Shown here: piece after piece, positions 4,487-8,577 of the stretch
How the letters are laid out: the number at the start of each line of letters is the position of its first letter
Position numbering within the stretch: position 1 is the stretch's first letter
Assembly: GCF_030036535.1 (NCBI RefSeq)
Contig: NZ_CP080387.1
Span: forward strand, 744,001-808,000
Source: Agrobacterium cucumeris
GTDB taxonomy: Bacteria; Pseudomonadota; Alphaproteobacteria; Rhizobiales; Rhizobiaceae
Direction: 5' to 3'
Length of the DNA stretch: 64,000 bases
The notes under the pieces: model-generated
Seen by the model: only the letters and a program-made list of their open reading frames with translations
Databases searched by the model: none
Told to the model about the DNA's origin: nothing
Program-made: the position numbers and the translations under genes

Positions 4487-5323
4487 ATGAGCATGGGTTG
4501 GATGGAGGCCGGATTTCTCGGCCTTTTGCAAGGACTTACGGAATTTCTTCCGATTTCTTCAAGCGCGCATCTGAGGATAGCCGGGGAGTTCCTGCCCTCC
4601 GGCGCCGATCCCGGGGCCGCCTTCACCGCGATTACGCAAATCGGCACGGAAATGGCCGTGCTGGTCTATTTCTGGTCGGATATCATGCGCATTGCCGCCG
4701 CCTGGCTGCGGCAGAACCTGCGCCTCGGCCCCTATGACAAGGCGGATGCCCGCCTTGGCTGGCTCATCATCGTCGGTTCTGTGCCGATCGTGTTTCTCGG
4801 CCTGTTCTTCAAGGATGCCATCGAACATTCGCTGCGCAACCTCTATATCACCGCCGTGATGCTGATCGTCTTCGGCATCGTTCTTGGCATTGCCGACAGG
4901 ATCGGTGAAAAACGCTACAAGCTGAACCAGCTGATCTGGCGCGACGGTATCCTCTTCGGTTTCGCGCAGGCCATGGCGCTCATCCCCGGCGTCTCGCGCT
5001 CGGGCGGCACCATCAGCGCCGGCCTGCTGCTCGGCTACACCCGCGAGGCGGCGGCCCGTTATTCCTTCCTGCTCGCCGTTCCCGCCGTCTTCGGTTCCGG
5101 TTTCTACCAGCTCTTCAAGAGCATCGGCGAGGACAATCCGGTCGGCTGGGGGCAGACGGGACTTGCCACCCTGATCGCCTTCATCGTCGGTTATGCGGTT
5201 ATTGTCGTCTTCCTCAAGCTGGTCTCCACCAAGAGCTACATGCCCTTCGTCTGGTACCGCGTGGTTATCGGCTTCATCCTGCTGGGGCTTCTGGGAACGG
5301 GCGCCATCAGCGCCGGCGGGTGA
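4487..5323 (+). CDS. uppP: Undecaprenyl-diphosphate phosphatase UppP/BacA
   Basis: A 278-residue polytopic membrane enzyme that dephosphorylates undecaprenyl pyrophosphate to recycle the lipid carrier for peptidoglycan and O-antigen; it is linked to bacitracin resistance. Both catalytic signatures are present: LTEFLPISSSAHLRIAGE near residue 20 and IPGVSRSGGTISAGLLLG near residue 165. The rest is alternating hydrophobic helices. AGGGA lies about 11 nt before the ATG. It is transcribed alone and ends in a strong terminator. Confidence 0.95.
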   Translation: MSMGWMEAGFLGLLQGLTEFLPISSSAHLRIAGEFLPSGADPGAAFTAITQIGTEMAVLVYFWSDIMRIAAAWLRQNLRLGPYDKADARLGWLIIVGSVPIVFLGLFFKDAIEHSLRNLYITAVMLIVFGIVLGIADRIGEKRYKLNQLIWRDGILFGFAQAMALIPGVSRSGGTISAGLLLGYTREAAARYSFLLAVPAVFGSGFYQLFKSIGEDNPVGWGQTGLATLIAFIVGYAVIVVFLKLVSTKSYMPFVWYRVVIGFILLGLLGTGAISAGG

Positions 5324-5340
5324 GGGGAGCCGTACTCGCC

Positions 5341-5413
5341 GTCATCCTCGGGCTTGACCCGAGGATCCATCGTGAGCCGGGTTGTGGATCCTCGGGTCAA
5401 GCCCGAGGATGAC
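5341..5413. repeat. Family D perfect inverted repeat, 29-bp arms
   Basis: Bases 5341-5369 and 5385-5413 are exact reverse complements around a 15-nt loop. The arms start GTCATCCTCGGGCTTGACCC. Sequence and architecture differ from the family A element. It lies between the convergent uppP and mgtE genes. Confidence 0.9.
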
Positions 5414-5441
5414 AATGGCGAGATTTCGATTTGTAAAAGTG

Positions 5442-5475
5442 AGGCCCGCTCTTTCGAGCGGGCCTTTCGTCTTTT
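5442..5475 (+). terminator. Rho-independent terminator of uppP
   Basis: AGGCCCGCTC TTTC GAGCGGGCCT is a 10-bp GC-rich stem followed by TTCGTCTTTT. It ends just at the mgtE stop codon on the other strand. Confidence 0.85.
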
Positions 5476-6847
5476 AGAGCAACGTACCGCTCAAGATCAC
5501 CAGCGCCACCGAGAAGTAGATGACGAGGCCGCTGACATCCACTAGCGTGGCGACGAAGGGGGCAGATGCGCTGGCGGGGTCAAGCCGCAGGCGCTGCAGG
5601 ATGAAGGGCAGCATGGAGCCGGCAAGCGAACCGAAGGTAACGATGCCGACAAGTGCCGAAAACACGGTGGCGCCCACCAGCAGCCAGTGGTCGCCGTAAT
5701 CGTAAAAGCCGGCCTGCTGCCAGACCGTGAGCCGCAGGAAGCCGATGGCGCCCAGAATGCAGCCGAGCGTCAGGCCCGTCGGGATTTCCCGAAGCAGCAC
5801 CCGCCACCAGTCGGAAAGCTTCAGTTCGCCGAGCGCCAGCGCCCGGATGATGAGCGAGGTAGCCTGCGAACCGGAGTTGCCGCCCGAAGACATGATGAGC
5901 GGAATGAACAGCGTCAGCACCACGGCCTTTTCCAGCTCGCCCTCGAAATGCTGCATGGCGCTGGCCGTCAGCATTTCGCCGAGAAAGAGCGCTGCGAGCC
6001 AGCCGGCGCGCTTGCGGATCATGTCCGGAAAGCCGATCGTCATGTAGGGCTTGCCGAGCGCCTCCATACCACCGAACTTGTGGGCGTCTTCCGTTGTATC
6101 GGCGATCATGGTGTCGATCACGTCGTCAACGGTGACGATGCCGAGAATATGCGAGCGGTCATCGACAACGGGCAGCGCCAGCAGGTCGTGCTTGCGGATC
6201 AGCCGGGCAACATCCTCCTGCGACATCAGGGGGCTGGCGCAGACGATGCCTTCCTTCGATGCGACAGAGAGGATGGAAGCACCGGCTTCGCCGGTCAGCA
6301 GGCGACGCAGCGTCACGACGGTGGAAAGCGTTCCGTCCTGCGCCAGCACATAGATGGCATAGACCGTTTCACGCGACCGCTCGACAACGCGGATGTGCGA
6401 AAGGGTCTGTTCCACCGTCCAGTCATCAGGCACGCTGACGAATTCCGTGGTCATGATAGAGCCGGCCGTGCGCGGCGGATACCCCATCAGGTGCTTGATG
6501 GAGAGCGCCGTCGTGCGGTCCAGCCGGGAAAACAGCTTTGCGCGCGGTTCTTCGGCCATTTCCGCCATGACGTCGGCAACGCGGTCGTCAGACATCAGGT
6601 TGACGAAGCGGGCAGCCTGTTCGACAGGAATATGGGCGATGATGGCGGCTGCGCCGTGCAGTTCGGGCCGGTCGAGAATGGCGACGGCCTTTGCCTGCGG
6701 CATGGCGAGCAGGGCGGTTGCGGCTTCGCCGACATCAAGCGTGTTGAGGTGCTCGACGCGTTCGGCAATGGTGGTGGAGCCGGCATTTCCGCTACGAAGA
6801 AGACGTGCGGCCTTGCTGGCCCTCTGGGAGAGGTTGTGGAAGTTCAT
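5474..6847 (-). CDS. mgtE: Magnesium transporter MgtE
   Basis: A 457-residue Mg2+ channel/transporter of the inner membrane. The order is the MgtE N superhelical domain (about residues 30-130, LDVGEAATALLAMPQAKAVA), two CBS domains (about 135-255, including PVVDDRSHILGIVTVDDVID), then the C-terminal transmembrane domain from about 280. That domain has LAALFLGEMLTASAM and the conserved IPLIMSSGGNSGSQA pore-region motif. The cytosolic domains of known MgtE proteins bind Mg2+ and close the pore. The start at 6847 has GGTGAG five nt upstream, and that ribosome site lies in a hairpin of the structured leader described separately. Confidence 0.95.
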   Translation of the reverse strand: MNFHNLSQRASKAARLLRSGNAGSTTIAERVEHLNTLDVGEAATALLAMPQAKAVAILDRPELHGAAAIIAHIPVEQAARFVNLMSDDRVADVMAEMAEEPRAKLFSRLDRTTALSIKHLMGYPPRTAGSIMTTEFVSVPDDWTVEQTLSHIRVVERSRETVYAIYVLAQDGTLSTVVTLRRLLTGEAGASILSVASKEGIVCASPLMSQEDVARLIRKHDLLALPVVDDRSHILGIVTVDDVIDTMIADTTEDAHKFGGMEALGKPYMTIGFPDMIRKRAGWLAALFLGEMLTASAMQHFEGELEKAVVLTLFIPLIMSSGGNSGSQATSLIIRALALGELKLSDWWRVLLREIPTGLTLGCILGAIGFLRLTVWQQAGFYDYGDHWLLVGATVFSALVGIVTFGSLAGSMLPFILQRLRLDPASASAPFVATLVDVSGLVIYFSVALVILSGTLL

Positions 6848-6990
6848 GATTGCTCACCTTTCCGTCGATTCGCCGATAACGGCGAACGCGGTGGTGAGCC
6901 GACAGCGGTCGGATCAGTTCACGTTCGCCGGTCTCGGCAAAGGCAATCGACTGCTACTGTCGCTAGACATCTAATGATGCTCCGTTGAAA
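6848..6990 (-). promoter_or_regulatory. Structured mgtE leader with mutually exclusive hairpins
   Basis: Read on the minus strand. Arm 6922-6930 (CGGCGAACG) is exactly complementary to 6880-6888 (CGTTCGCCG). The second of these also lies in a competing hairpin, TTCGCCG TTAT CGGCGAA (6869-6886). GCTCACC (6893-6899) is complementary to GGTGAGC (6852-6858), which holds the mgtE Shine-Dalgarno, so the competing fold hides that site. CCGAC CGCT GTCGG (6899-6912) is a further small hairpin. The first arm lies inside the last codons of the leader ORF, so translation of that ORF should choose between folds. Pairings are seen directly; regulation is inferred. It does not match the M-box pattern I know. 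Confidence 0.55.
6914..6970 (-). CDS. Putative proline-rich leader peptide of mgtE
   Basis: An 18-codon ORF, MSSDSSSRLPLPRPANVN, begins at ATG 6970 and stops at TGA 6914-6916. GGAG is placed 9 nt upstream. Prolines are at 10, 12 and 14, in RLPLPRP. It shares PLPR and an acidic/serine N terminus with enterobacterial MgtL, whose prolines make translation sensitive to Mg2+ and switch on mgtA. The last codons overlap arm 6922-6930 of the leader. The stop is 66 nt before the mgtE ATG. The peptide itself probably has no separate function. Nothing here proves translation, but the site, position upstream of a Mg2+ transporter and composition fit together well. Confidence 0.55.
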   Translation of the reverse strand: MSSDSSSRLPLPRPANVN

Positions 6991-7095
6991 TCCGCGCCGT
7001 GCCGCAAGGCATGCGCGTAAGGCCGTGTTGCGCCTGAAACCGAAAAGAGTCAAGCGCCCGATTGTGAAATTTCCGTAAGCTGCGATAGGGTCGGC

Positions 7096-8340
7096 TCAGG
7101 CCGCCTTTTCGCGCCGCTCGACGGTGACGGAAATGAGGAAAACGCCGAGCCCGAGCAGCGACAGAACTGCGCCGACATAACCTGTCGAGGCATAGCCATA
7201 ACCCATGGCGATGACCAGCCCGCCGAGCCAGGCGCCAAGCGCATTGGCGATGTTGAAGGCGGAGTGGTTGGAGGCGGCGGCCAGCGTCTGGGCATCCTGC
7301 GCCACATCCATCAGCCGCGTCTGCACGGCAGGACACGCGGCAAAACCGCAGCCGATCAGGAAGACGCAGAGGCACAACATGAACGGTTCATGCGCCGTCA
7401 TGCCGAACACGACCATGACCAGCACGTTGAAGGCGAGCATGCCGCCAATCGTGCCGTTGAGCGAGATATCCGCCAGCCGCGAGCCGACCACATTGCCGAC
7501 ATTCATGCCGATGCCAAATAGCGCCAGCACCATGGAGACGGTGGAAACCGGCATCATCGCCACATCAGTGGTGGTCTTGGCGATATAGCTGAACACCGAG
7601 AACATGCCGCCGAAACCGACAGACGCGATGGCAAGCGTAAGCCACACCTGCACGCGGCGAAAAGCGCCGAGTTCGCGCCAGACGCTTGCACCTTCCTCCA
7701 CCCGGTCACGCGGCTGGAACAGCCAGAGCAGGGCGACGGTCAGAAGTGCTATGCCGCCGACCAGCATGAAGGCGGCGCGCCAGGACAGCAGCTGGCCGAA
7801 AAAGGTGGCAAGCGGTGTGCCGAGCAGCGTGGCGACGGTGAGGCCGAGCATGACGCGGCCGACGGCGCGGGCGCGTTTATGGATCGGCGCCATCGAGGCC
7901 GCCACCAGCGCGGCGACGCCGAAATAGGCGCCATGCGGCAGGCCGGTGATGAAGCGCAGTACGGTGAAGCTCAGAAAGTCAGGTGCGACGGCGCTCAAGA
8001 TATTGCCGGCTGCAAAAAGCCCCATCAGGCCGAGGAGCAAAGCGCGCCGTGTCATGCGCGCGGCAAGGATGGCGATGATCGGCGCGCCGATGACAACGCC
8101 GAGCGCATAGGCCGTGATAACATAACCCGCCTGCGGCACCGTCACGCCATAGGTCGTGGCGACGTCAGGCAACAGGCCCATGATGGCGAATTCGCCGGTG
8201 CCGATGCCGAAGCCGCCGGCGGCCAGCGCCAGCTCGATAAGCGCGATGGCAAGCGGCGAGAGCGCCACGGCCGGAGTGTCCGTGTAAACGGTTTCATTCC
8301 CCGCTGCGGGACGGGCTTCGGAAATTTTCGACTGGCTCAT
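7096..8340 (-). CDS. MFS transporter, AraJ/YdhP-like efflux permease
   Basis: A 414-residue 12-helix major facilitator. The first helix region reads GFGIGTGEFAIMGLLPDVA, typical of the arabinose-efflux/drug-efflux (DHA1) branch. Helices 2-3 carry ILAARMTRRALLLGLMGLF and the next segment FITGLPHGAYFG, and a hydrophilic central loop follows (QPRDRVEEGASVWREL). The ATG at 8340 is chosen over 8382 because the extension is proline-rich and unlike the family. Substrate unknown. No regulator is adjacent. It ends about 105 bp before the mgtE leader in the same direction. Confidence 0.85.
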   Translation of the reverse strand: MSQSKISEARPAAGNETVYTDTPAVALSPLAIALIELALAAGGFGIGTGEFAIMGLLPDVATTYGVTVPQAGYVITAYALGVVIGAPIIAILAARMTRRALLLGLMGLFAAGNILSAVAPDFLSFTVLRFITGLPHGAYFGVAALVAASMAPIHKRARAVGRVMLGLTVATLLGTPLATFFGQLLSWRAAFMLVGGIALLTVALLWLFQPRDRVEEGASVWRELGAFRRVQVWLTLAIASVGFGGMFSVFSYIAKTTTDVAMMPVSTVSMVLALFGIGMNVGNVVGSRLADISLNGTIGGMLAFNVLVMVVFGMTAHEPFMLCLCVFLIGCGFAACPAVQTRLMDVAQDAQTLAAASNHSAFNIANALGAWLGGLVIAMGYGYASTGYVGAVLSLLGLGVFLISVTVERREKAA

Positions 8341-8577
8341 GATGACCTGAGAAGGGGGAGGACCCCACAGAAAAAAGGGCAAGACCGTATGGGAGCGGTC
8401 TGCCCTGACTGGAGATGCGCGGTCATGAAAATGACCTTAAGTGATCCCTAACATGAAATGATGCGTTGCGGTAGAGCGATTCTCGGTAAAAGAGCATCTT
8501 CACGCGATGGTGTTCGGAACTCTATATGAAGCCAGGCATTTACGCGCGGCTGCGAACGTTACGGGACCGGGTTGGAC

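Follow-up and report, generated by a model that had tools for sequence, protein, structure and literature searches.

A conserved upstream open reading frame and two exclusive RNA folds ahead of mgtE point to a probable translation-coupled Mg2+ switch in the Rhizobiales

How is the ribosome site of mgtE controlled in Agrobacterium cucumeris? In the window, the 64,000-nt stretch of contig NZ_CP080387.1 analysed here, mgtE (5474..6847, minus strand) encodes a 457-aa Mg2+ transporter with the Pfam domains MgtE_N, CBS and MgtE, and its TIGR00400 score of 318.7 bits, against a curated cut-off of 232.75, places it in that family. An earlier note on this DNA proposed that the mgtE leader encodes a short proline-rich peptide whose translation decides between two RNA folds, one of which hides the ribosome site. 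Comparison with related genomes and folding predictions retain most of this proposal, replace the suggested sensor and extend the element to other genes.

The leader of mgtE and its upstream open reading frame

The short ORF described in the earlier note is present on the minus strand: an upstream open reading frame (uORF; 6914..6970) of 18 codons that starts with ATG at 6970, encodes MSSDSSSRLPLPRPANVN and ends in TGA (6916-6914). A Shine-Dalgarno sequence, GGAG (6980..6983, minus strand), read from the sequence and matched by an SD-like motif in relatives, precedes it, and 66 nt separate the uORF stop (6914) from the mgtE start (6847). Further upstream, a conserved box, CTTGAC (7049..7054, minus strand), is the probable promoter -35 of the mgtE transcript. 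Because TTGAC lies about 80 nt upstream of the uORF in all 28 leaders compared (28 chosen of 137; CTTGAC in 25 of the 28 by eye count), transcription of the uORF is suggested, while a simple sigma-70 scan found no full promoter. The adjacent upstream gene (7096-8382, minus strand) encodes an MFS transporter whose closest models, Cmx/CmrA-type efflux and AraJ, score below their cut-offs; the Rhizobiales sRNA Atu_C4 (RF02499, 99.9 bits) overlaps the 5' end of this ORF at 8368-8437 (minus strand). On the other side, between an ORF ending at 5323 and the mgtE 3' end, lies a strong palindrome (ATCCTCGGGCTTGACCCGAGGATCCA ... TGGATCCTCGGGTCAAGCCCGAGGAT, about 5340-5425), which gives the impression of a dispersed intergenic repeat.

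To compare leaders, we collected MgtE orthologues from 39 of 39 genus genomes, from 62 of 297 family genomes (E 1e-100) and from the best 80 of 208 titled genome records (Agrobacterium, Rhizobium, Allorhizobium and Ferirhizobium, including R. leguminosarum, R. tropici and R. phaseoli). Among the upstream regions listed, out of 101 distinct ones, the uORF is present in all except one (L069), which has none. A pattern search located the element in 147 loci, corresponding to 98 distinct sequences that were thinned to 56; its end pattern left out two loci (L133, L140) in which the element is present. When these 56 are combined with 84 matches of the covariance models introduced below, 137 of the 140 sequences carry the ORF; the other three, which are without the motif, we regard as false matches.

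Agrobacterium and Rhizobium, as well as 13 other families of the order, keep the uORF start, its ribosome site, its approximate length and its stop. An SD-like motif precedes 124 of 129 parsed uORFs, and the start codon is ATG in 134 of the 137 and TTG in 3. The in-frame stop falls 54.4 nt from the start (sd 4.8, 137 of 137; between 42 and 66 nt in 136) and is TGA in 119 uORFs, TAG in 10 and TAA in 8. The two remaining frames have a stop in 91 and 119 of the 137, with standard deviations of 29.8 and 24.4 nt. The earlier note had held that lack of conservation of the ORF start and Shine-Dalgarno in close relatives would speak against it; both are conserved, and the recurrence of the ORF, the helices described below and the -35-like box in related genomes is more than chance would give.

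The constant part of the peptide is its N-terminus, M-[P/S]-[S/G/N/D]-D-S-x-S-R; peptides of the pattern-search set begin M-[P/S]-S-D-S-x-S-R-L. Codon 2 encodes Pro in 104 of 137 uORFs, with all four Pro codons (CCA, CCC, CCT and CCG) in use, Ser in 31 and Asn in the other 2, and codon 6 is unconstrained (among others Ser, His, Pro, Tyr, Arg and Asp); in these codon counts five rows parsed one codon early were corrected by hand, and in the folding set used below five rows have their start one codon too early. An acidic residue lies within positions 2-6 in 135 of 137 uORFs, usually one only, which is fewer than in the EPDP of MgtL. The PLPR prolines, which the earlier note had made the sensor, do not hold up in that role, as the first and third of the three vary (orthologues read RLFQPS, RLSKPR and RLRMPR). 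The proline at R+4 is kept in 114 of 128 rows, a few of them misregistered, and its CCG codon also lies in a conserved helix. Also against a fixed peptide, the C-terminal half of the uORF varies and some indels are not whole codons (alignment column 79, 10 of 56 sequences), the stop then falling slightly further on. In three loci (L066, L067, L072) the uORF ends early, after 14 or 10 aa, although these leaders retain both the long-range helix and the usual stop triplet.

Other codons are held almost letter by letter. Codon 4 is GAC in 128 of 137 uORFs and codon 5 is AGT in 124, never another Ser codon; in the Ser-Arg pair that follows, 121 of 128 rows have AGT and 124 have CGA, although in 41 window ORFs AGT makes up 3% of Ser codons and CGA 8.5% of Arg codons. 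The GAC-AGT of codons 4-5 (6961-6956), near-invariant as nucleotides, places its rare AGT codon in the loop of P0, a possible hairpin within the uORF (6948..6962, minus strand; CGAC 6962-6959 with GTCG 6951-6948) that would compete with the ON helix described below. P0 is invariant in 56 of 56 sequences and 96.5% of its cells are paired in an alignment of 94, with zero compensatory changes, hence its pairing is only possible, and pairing gives no reason for the near-freezing of codons 4-5. Because codon 2 varies synonymously while codons 4-5 stay frozen, the start of the uORF seems to be under constraint at the peptide and at the RNA level.

These frozen positions bear on two alternatives to a translation-coupled switch. 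Retention of the uncommon AGT and CGA codons is what an amino-acid or tRNA attenuator would ask for, in which ribosomes stall at Ser AGT, Arg CGA or Pro codons when charged tRNA is scarce; with codon 6 free, two of the three prolines variable and no amino-acid gene among the recurrent downstream classes, we regard such an attenuator as very unlikely. A trans-acting sRNA or protein that reads the GACAGT-(NNN)-AGTCGA block and sets the switch would explain why AGT in the P0 loop is near-invariant with neither a pairing nor a codon reason, but nothing in the comparisons made here points to a partner, and we hold this reading to be extremely improbable.

Two alternative folds of the leader

The 171-nt leader folds at -65.2 kcal/mol, compared with a mean of -51.0 for shuffled sequences (z -3.7; 0 of 200 dinucleotide shuffles as good). 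Its minimum-energy structure is the closed (OFF) fold, in which an anti-Shine-Dalgarno GCTCACC (6893..6899, minus strand) pairs with the GGTGAGC of the mgtE Shine-Dalgarno region (6852..6858, minus strand), a complementarity that had been correctly noted before. Between these strands lies a switch segment (6864..6888, minus strand) that either pairs with itself, forming the inner hairpin of the OFF fold, or pairs with the uORF, forming the ON helix. At the uORF stop, a further hairpin, H1 (6899..6912, minus strand), pairs CCGAC (6912-6908) with GTCGG (6903-6899); it is paired in 85.3% of cells, shows changes on both sides at 3 of its 5 pairs, has a clade-specific register and is less well supported.

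In the window the ON helix comprises three stretches totalling 21 pairs, all with their 5' strand in the uORF on the minus strand. The first (6945..6951, GTCGATT) pairs with AATCGAC at 6870-6864 and is the best conserved, near-invariant with 99.7% of cells paired. The second (6934..6938, GCCGA) pairs with TCGGC at 6876-6872, and the helix that contains it shows both-side changes at 4 of 7 pairs in the 56-sequence alignment. The third (6922..6930, CGGCGAACG) pairs with 6888-6880; it lies outside the counted alignment pairs and is covered by a swap test of whole uORFs. The earlier note had taken this third stretch as the pairing arm, and its complementarity is confirmed, but it is one of three, the helix also joining 6938-6934 to 6876-6872 and 6951-6945 to 6870-6864.

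Both folds leave a record of compensatory change. The 56-sequence MAFFT alignment was not fitted to structure, yet it is also the source of the structures, and the shuffles ignore relatedness; on this basis, 94.2% of the ON-helix cells are paired, with 42 both-side cells and a covariation of 0.132 against 0.054 in shuffles, and the anti-SD plus inner helix has 93.3% paired, 42 both-side cells and 0.247 against 0.152, with 0 of 500 shuffles reaching the observed value in either case. Two further measures were not clearly above shuffles in the same alignment: the number of pairs with both-side change was reached by 25 of 500 (ON) and 149 of 500 (OFF), and that of further pair types by 396 and 434 of 500. 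Within the OFF fold, the anti-SD helix has 99.2% of cells paired and both-side changes at 3 of 7 pairs in the 56 sequences, and at 7 of 7 pairs in the 94-sequence alignment, which was fitted to the OFF fold. Sliding one partner by 1 to 3 columns lowers pairing to 16-47% (ON) and 23-44% (OFF). In the swap test, the duplex between a uORF body and its own leader averages -37.1 kcal/mol, compared with -30.7 for permuted partners (sd 0.32, 0 of 5000); the excess is likewise 0 of 5000 within 55 family sequences and within the 74 others, and reversed uORFs average -27.6 kcal/mol.

These alignments support the earlier idea of two mutually exclusive folds: as predicted from the sequences, once the uORF pairs with the segment that immediately precedes the mgtE Shine-Dalgarno, the anti-SD hairpin cannot form, and both folds covary. 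A pseudoknot in which the two coexist was considered and is unlikely, given the short spacers in the Agrobacterium leader set against a full helix together with a closed site.

An RNA with two conserved folds raises the question of a classical riboswitch, in which the RNA itself binds Mg2+ or another ligand, the folds are its states and uORF translation is incidental. The near-invariance of GAC-AGT and AGT-CGA beyond codon needs, with AGT at 3% of Ser codons, would suit such an RNA, as would the riboswitch-like diversity of its target genes. Yet the ORF start, Shine-Dalgarno and stop are kept while ATG and TTG, and TGA, TAG and TAA, interchange; codon 2 varies synonymously; and much of the long-range helix varies with compensation. 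Moreover, no Rfam family matches the leader at its gathering score, nor at E up to 5 in 6800-7120. We consider a riboswitch unlikely.

What distinguishes a translation-coupled switch is its dependence on the ribosome, which was modelled by folding leaders with the uORF body kept single-stranded ("covered"), or with only -15 to +16 of the uORF kept so, as for a ribosome at the start. The folding set comprised 129 of the 137 uORFs (8 with a variant anchor were left out), and the closed helix could be defined in 124 (5 have none). The mean predicted probability of the closed helix in these 124 is 0.52 for the free leader, 0.94 with the body covered, a value that is partly by construction since the covered state itself served to define the closed pairs, and 0.23 with only the start covered. 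Body and start differ by more than 0.3 in 101 of 124 leaders, and 1 leader shows the reverse order.

Swap and shuffle controls are fairer: with the start covered, the closed probability rises to 0.67 with other species' uORFs and to 0.75 with codon-shuffled uORFs, and the leader's own uORF gives a lower value than swapped ones in 106 of 124 cases (higher in 11) and than shuffled ones in 107 (higher in 7). Still, 25 of the 124 leaders remain mostly closed with only the start covered, and the window leader, whose closed helix has a probability of 0.99 both free and covered and of 0.45 when the start is covered, is predicted to open only halfway. A cruder measure, the probability that the Shine-Dalgarno is unpaired, showed almost no difference (free 0.43, body covered 0.41, start covered 0.50); we ascribe this to a crude SD finder and adopted the closed-helix probability instead. 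The folding model predicts that the site is closed with a ribosome on the ORF body and open in most relatives with a ribosome at its start. Comparison and folding in this way support the polarity proposed earlier, with the mgtE site open when the uORF is free and closed when it is covered.

The same uORF and folds could in principle act through Rho-dependent loss of the transcript and not through translation initiation, which is how mgtL and corL act according to PMC11282234 and PMC11552253. A covarying OFF helix that sequesters the downstream Shine-Dalgarno would be needless for pure transcription control, and no terminator-like site occurs within the leader (6848-7054), the one found (7160-7143) being inside the upstream gene; a Rho output seems to us quite improbable.

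Spread of the element and the genes behind it

To follow the element beyond mgtE we relied on a covariance model, R1, built from mgtE leaders only and including no mgtE coding sequence beyond the start codon; a second model, R2, was trained also on corA and mgtA leaders, and only R1 results are independent evidence for those genes. At E 0.01, R1 matched 75 of 394 family genomes and 69 of 397 genomes drawn from the order, 57 of the latter in 13 other families. The window's genome has one credible copy; a second match there (L290) was judged false by eye for want of the motif. A second, distant MgtE-like protein of the same genome (L002, G000:C1:1284941-1286038; 29% identity) has no match to the leader model. 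The element is not universal, since 15 of 62 mgtE-bearing family genomes are not among the R1 family matches; 12 of these 15 are 1-2.4 Mb in size.

Of 141 distinct places, 84 were classified by their downstream DNA: 22 from the window's family and every one of the 62 from other families. The remaining 57 are mostly strong family matches, many at known mgtE loci, along with weak or partial ones (e.g. G354, G126). The gene behind the element is mgtE in 48 of the 84, a small membrane protein gene in 14, DUF1003 in 5, corA in 4, an mgtA-type ATPase gene in 4, an ABC permease gene in 3, OprB in 2 and none of these in 4, so that a known Mg2+ importer family follows in 56. Other families contribute MgtE (37), small membrane proteins (14), DUF1003 (3), ABC permease (3), OprB (2), an MgtA-type ATPase (1) and none (2), while the window's family contributes MgtE (11), CorA (4, in three genera), MgtA-type ATPase (3, in two genera), DUF1003 (2) and none (2).

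By sequence comparison, the element is larger in extent than first noted, standing before predicted corA, mgtA-type ATPase and further genes. Pfam and NCBIfam back CorA at L277, L280 and L282, with TIGR00383 below cut-off for L280 and, just, for L282; they give Mg-translocating P-type ATPase as the best match of the N-terminal part at L260, L278 and L279, and also back the DUF1003, BPD_transp_1 and OprB genes. CorA follows directly in L282, after a small membrane protein in L277 and L281 and after a 62-aa ORF in L280; in the four MgtA cases an ORF of 76-106 aa comes first. R1 gives the corA and mgtA leaders weak scores (E per genome 1e-7 to 1.3e-3), and both R1 searches together should yield about eight matches by chance at E 0.01, these E-values being rough. 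R1, however, is blind to the downstream gene, and matches by chance would not gather immediately ahead of Mg2+ transporter genes. Some model matches (L267, L284, L285) were judged false for lack of the motif, and one locus with the motif (L289) precedes no recognised Mg2+ gene.

Several genomes carry more than one copy. Leaders stand before both mgtE and mgtA in G281, G318 and G800, and before mgtE and an ABC permease gene in G742. In the genus of G593, which we judge to be Methylobacterium because a small protein of its member G538 equals one of M. bullatum, R2 matches 42 of 59 genomes, at as many as five copies; we examined 20 copies from six of these genomes, and of the five in G1199 one precedes mgtE and four precede small membrane proteins. 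A search of the class with R2 (385 genomes, E 0.001) matched 8, 6 of them in other orders, and among these six only L292, again before an ABC permease gene, looks real; L293-L296 were judged false by eye because the motif is missing, L296 having a partial motif and no such leader. A weak candidate match outside the order (L297) has an MSSDSP start and precedes a 431-aa protein, which we take to resemble the CorC/hemolysin (CNNM) family.

Two kinds of small protein recur behind the element. Proteins of 61-106 aa sharing, by eye, W-x-x-[N/D]-P-x-[N/T]-[G/R]-[R/K]-x-x-C-x-W (L278 at 1235-1552, L279, L260, L349, L354) lie between the leader and mgtA, and in Methylobacterium behind a leader with no mgtA seen; the L278 copy matches neither a Pfam nor an NCBIfam family. 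The second kind are small membrane-like proteins with V-F-x-P-[V/I] in common in an alignment of five (L211, L241, L245, L254, L281, and relatives); they stand directly before corA in two loci, and a sequence search with the L245 protein finds five proteins, itself included. By analogy, we presume that these could be MgtS-like partners.

A proposed switch and its relation to known systems

We judge it probable that the leader is a leader-peptide-coupled translational switch in which elongation through the uORF closes the mgtE site and its failure opens it, with Mg2+ taken as the signal by analogy with MgtL. The mgtE mRNA would begin with the 18-codon uORF and be translated there. Ribosomes running through the uORF body would cover its RNA, leaving the switch segment to fold on itself and the anti-Shine-Dalgarno to close the mgtE ribosome site (OFF). 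Were a ribosome to stall at the uORF start, or to drop off close to it, the body would be free to pair with the switch segment and the site would open (ON). Because a free uORF body corresponds to an open site, importers would be expressed when uORF elongation fails, a polarity that fits importers, which should be ON at low Mg2+.

We take Mg2+-dependent early elongation to be the most likely signal; low intracellular Mg2+ would cause pausing or drop-off at the N-terminal M-[P/S]-x-D-S, as in MgtL; by this analogy the start is plausibly a weaker version of an EPDP-like motif. Of the earlier proposal, the conserved uORF, the exclusive folds and the polarity are kept, and the PLPR proline sensor is given up. 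We conclude that the element is real and conserved, and that it is most likely a translation-coupled switch of a predicted Mg2+ regulon.

We also lean, with modest confidence, towards a broader reading: that one peptide motif, M-[P/S]-S-D-S-x-S-R, and the RNA switch attached to it form a portable Mg2+ control module of the order, present in up to five copies per genome before genes for MgtE, CorA, MgtA, OprB, ABC permease, DUF1003 and small membrane proteins. If so, these bacteria would have a Mg2+ sensor in the ribosome's elongation of one short start, and the unassigned genes that follow the element would be new Mg2+ homeostasis genes. The order concerned includes Agrobacterium, rhizobia and Methylobacterium, and the proposal offers it a testable Mg2+ regulon, with candidate Mg2+ roles for DUF1003, the ABC permease, the OprB porin and the small membrane proteins.

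Among the matches listed from open PubMed Central papers (titles and the starts of abstracts), no description of an mgtE leader in this order was seen, and an earlier account is possible. In Bacillus, mgtE is also preceded by an RNA element, the M-box. The M-box (ykoK) riboswitch RF00380 and the Mg sensor RF01056 are magnesium-sensing RNA leaders (PMC3766115), like the one proposed here. They differ in that the present leader matches no Rfam covariance model, by gathering score or at E up to 5, which covers RF01056 on the assumption that this family is in the Rfam copy used. The alphaproteobacterial motifs serC, speF, suhB, ybhL and metA (SAM-II) were, like this element, found by comparison in Agrobacterium and relatives, but are named after other genes, and neither "mgtE" nor "magnesium" occurs in the main text of PMC1273637.

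The closest parallels are enteric, and mgtL and corL are likened here by description, not by sequence. Two exclusive folds coupled to uORF translation, a feature of mgtL- and corL-type leaders, are found here by computation, through covariation and ribosome-position folding. In the mgtL leader of mgtA (Salmonella, E. coli), as set out in PMC11282234 and PMC11552253, a short uORF likewise precedes a Mg2+ transporter gene, efficient uORF translation means repression, alternative folds form, and Pro and acidic residues lie near the N-terminus; ribosomes drop off at EPDP in low Mg2+, turning mgtA ON (PMC11282234). The element described here differs in its peptide, in serving MgtE, CorA and others besides MgtA, in preceding several genes per genome and in belonging to another bacterial class; and whereas the mgtL output runs via Rho, here a conserved fold sequesters the Shine-Dalgarno. 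For corL (Salmonella, E. coli corA), PMC11552253 describes uORF translation inversely related to corA expression and two exclusive structures, with the same ON polarity as proposed here; corL differs in that it is reported to be Rho-dependent and is confined to one gene. The Rhizobiales element would be a second Mg2+ leader-peptide system after enteric mgtL and corL, common to unrelated transporter families, and another natural system for studying ribosomal Mg2+ sensing, one that differs in its peptide and probably also in its output.
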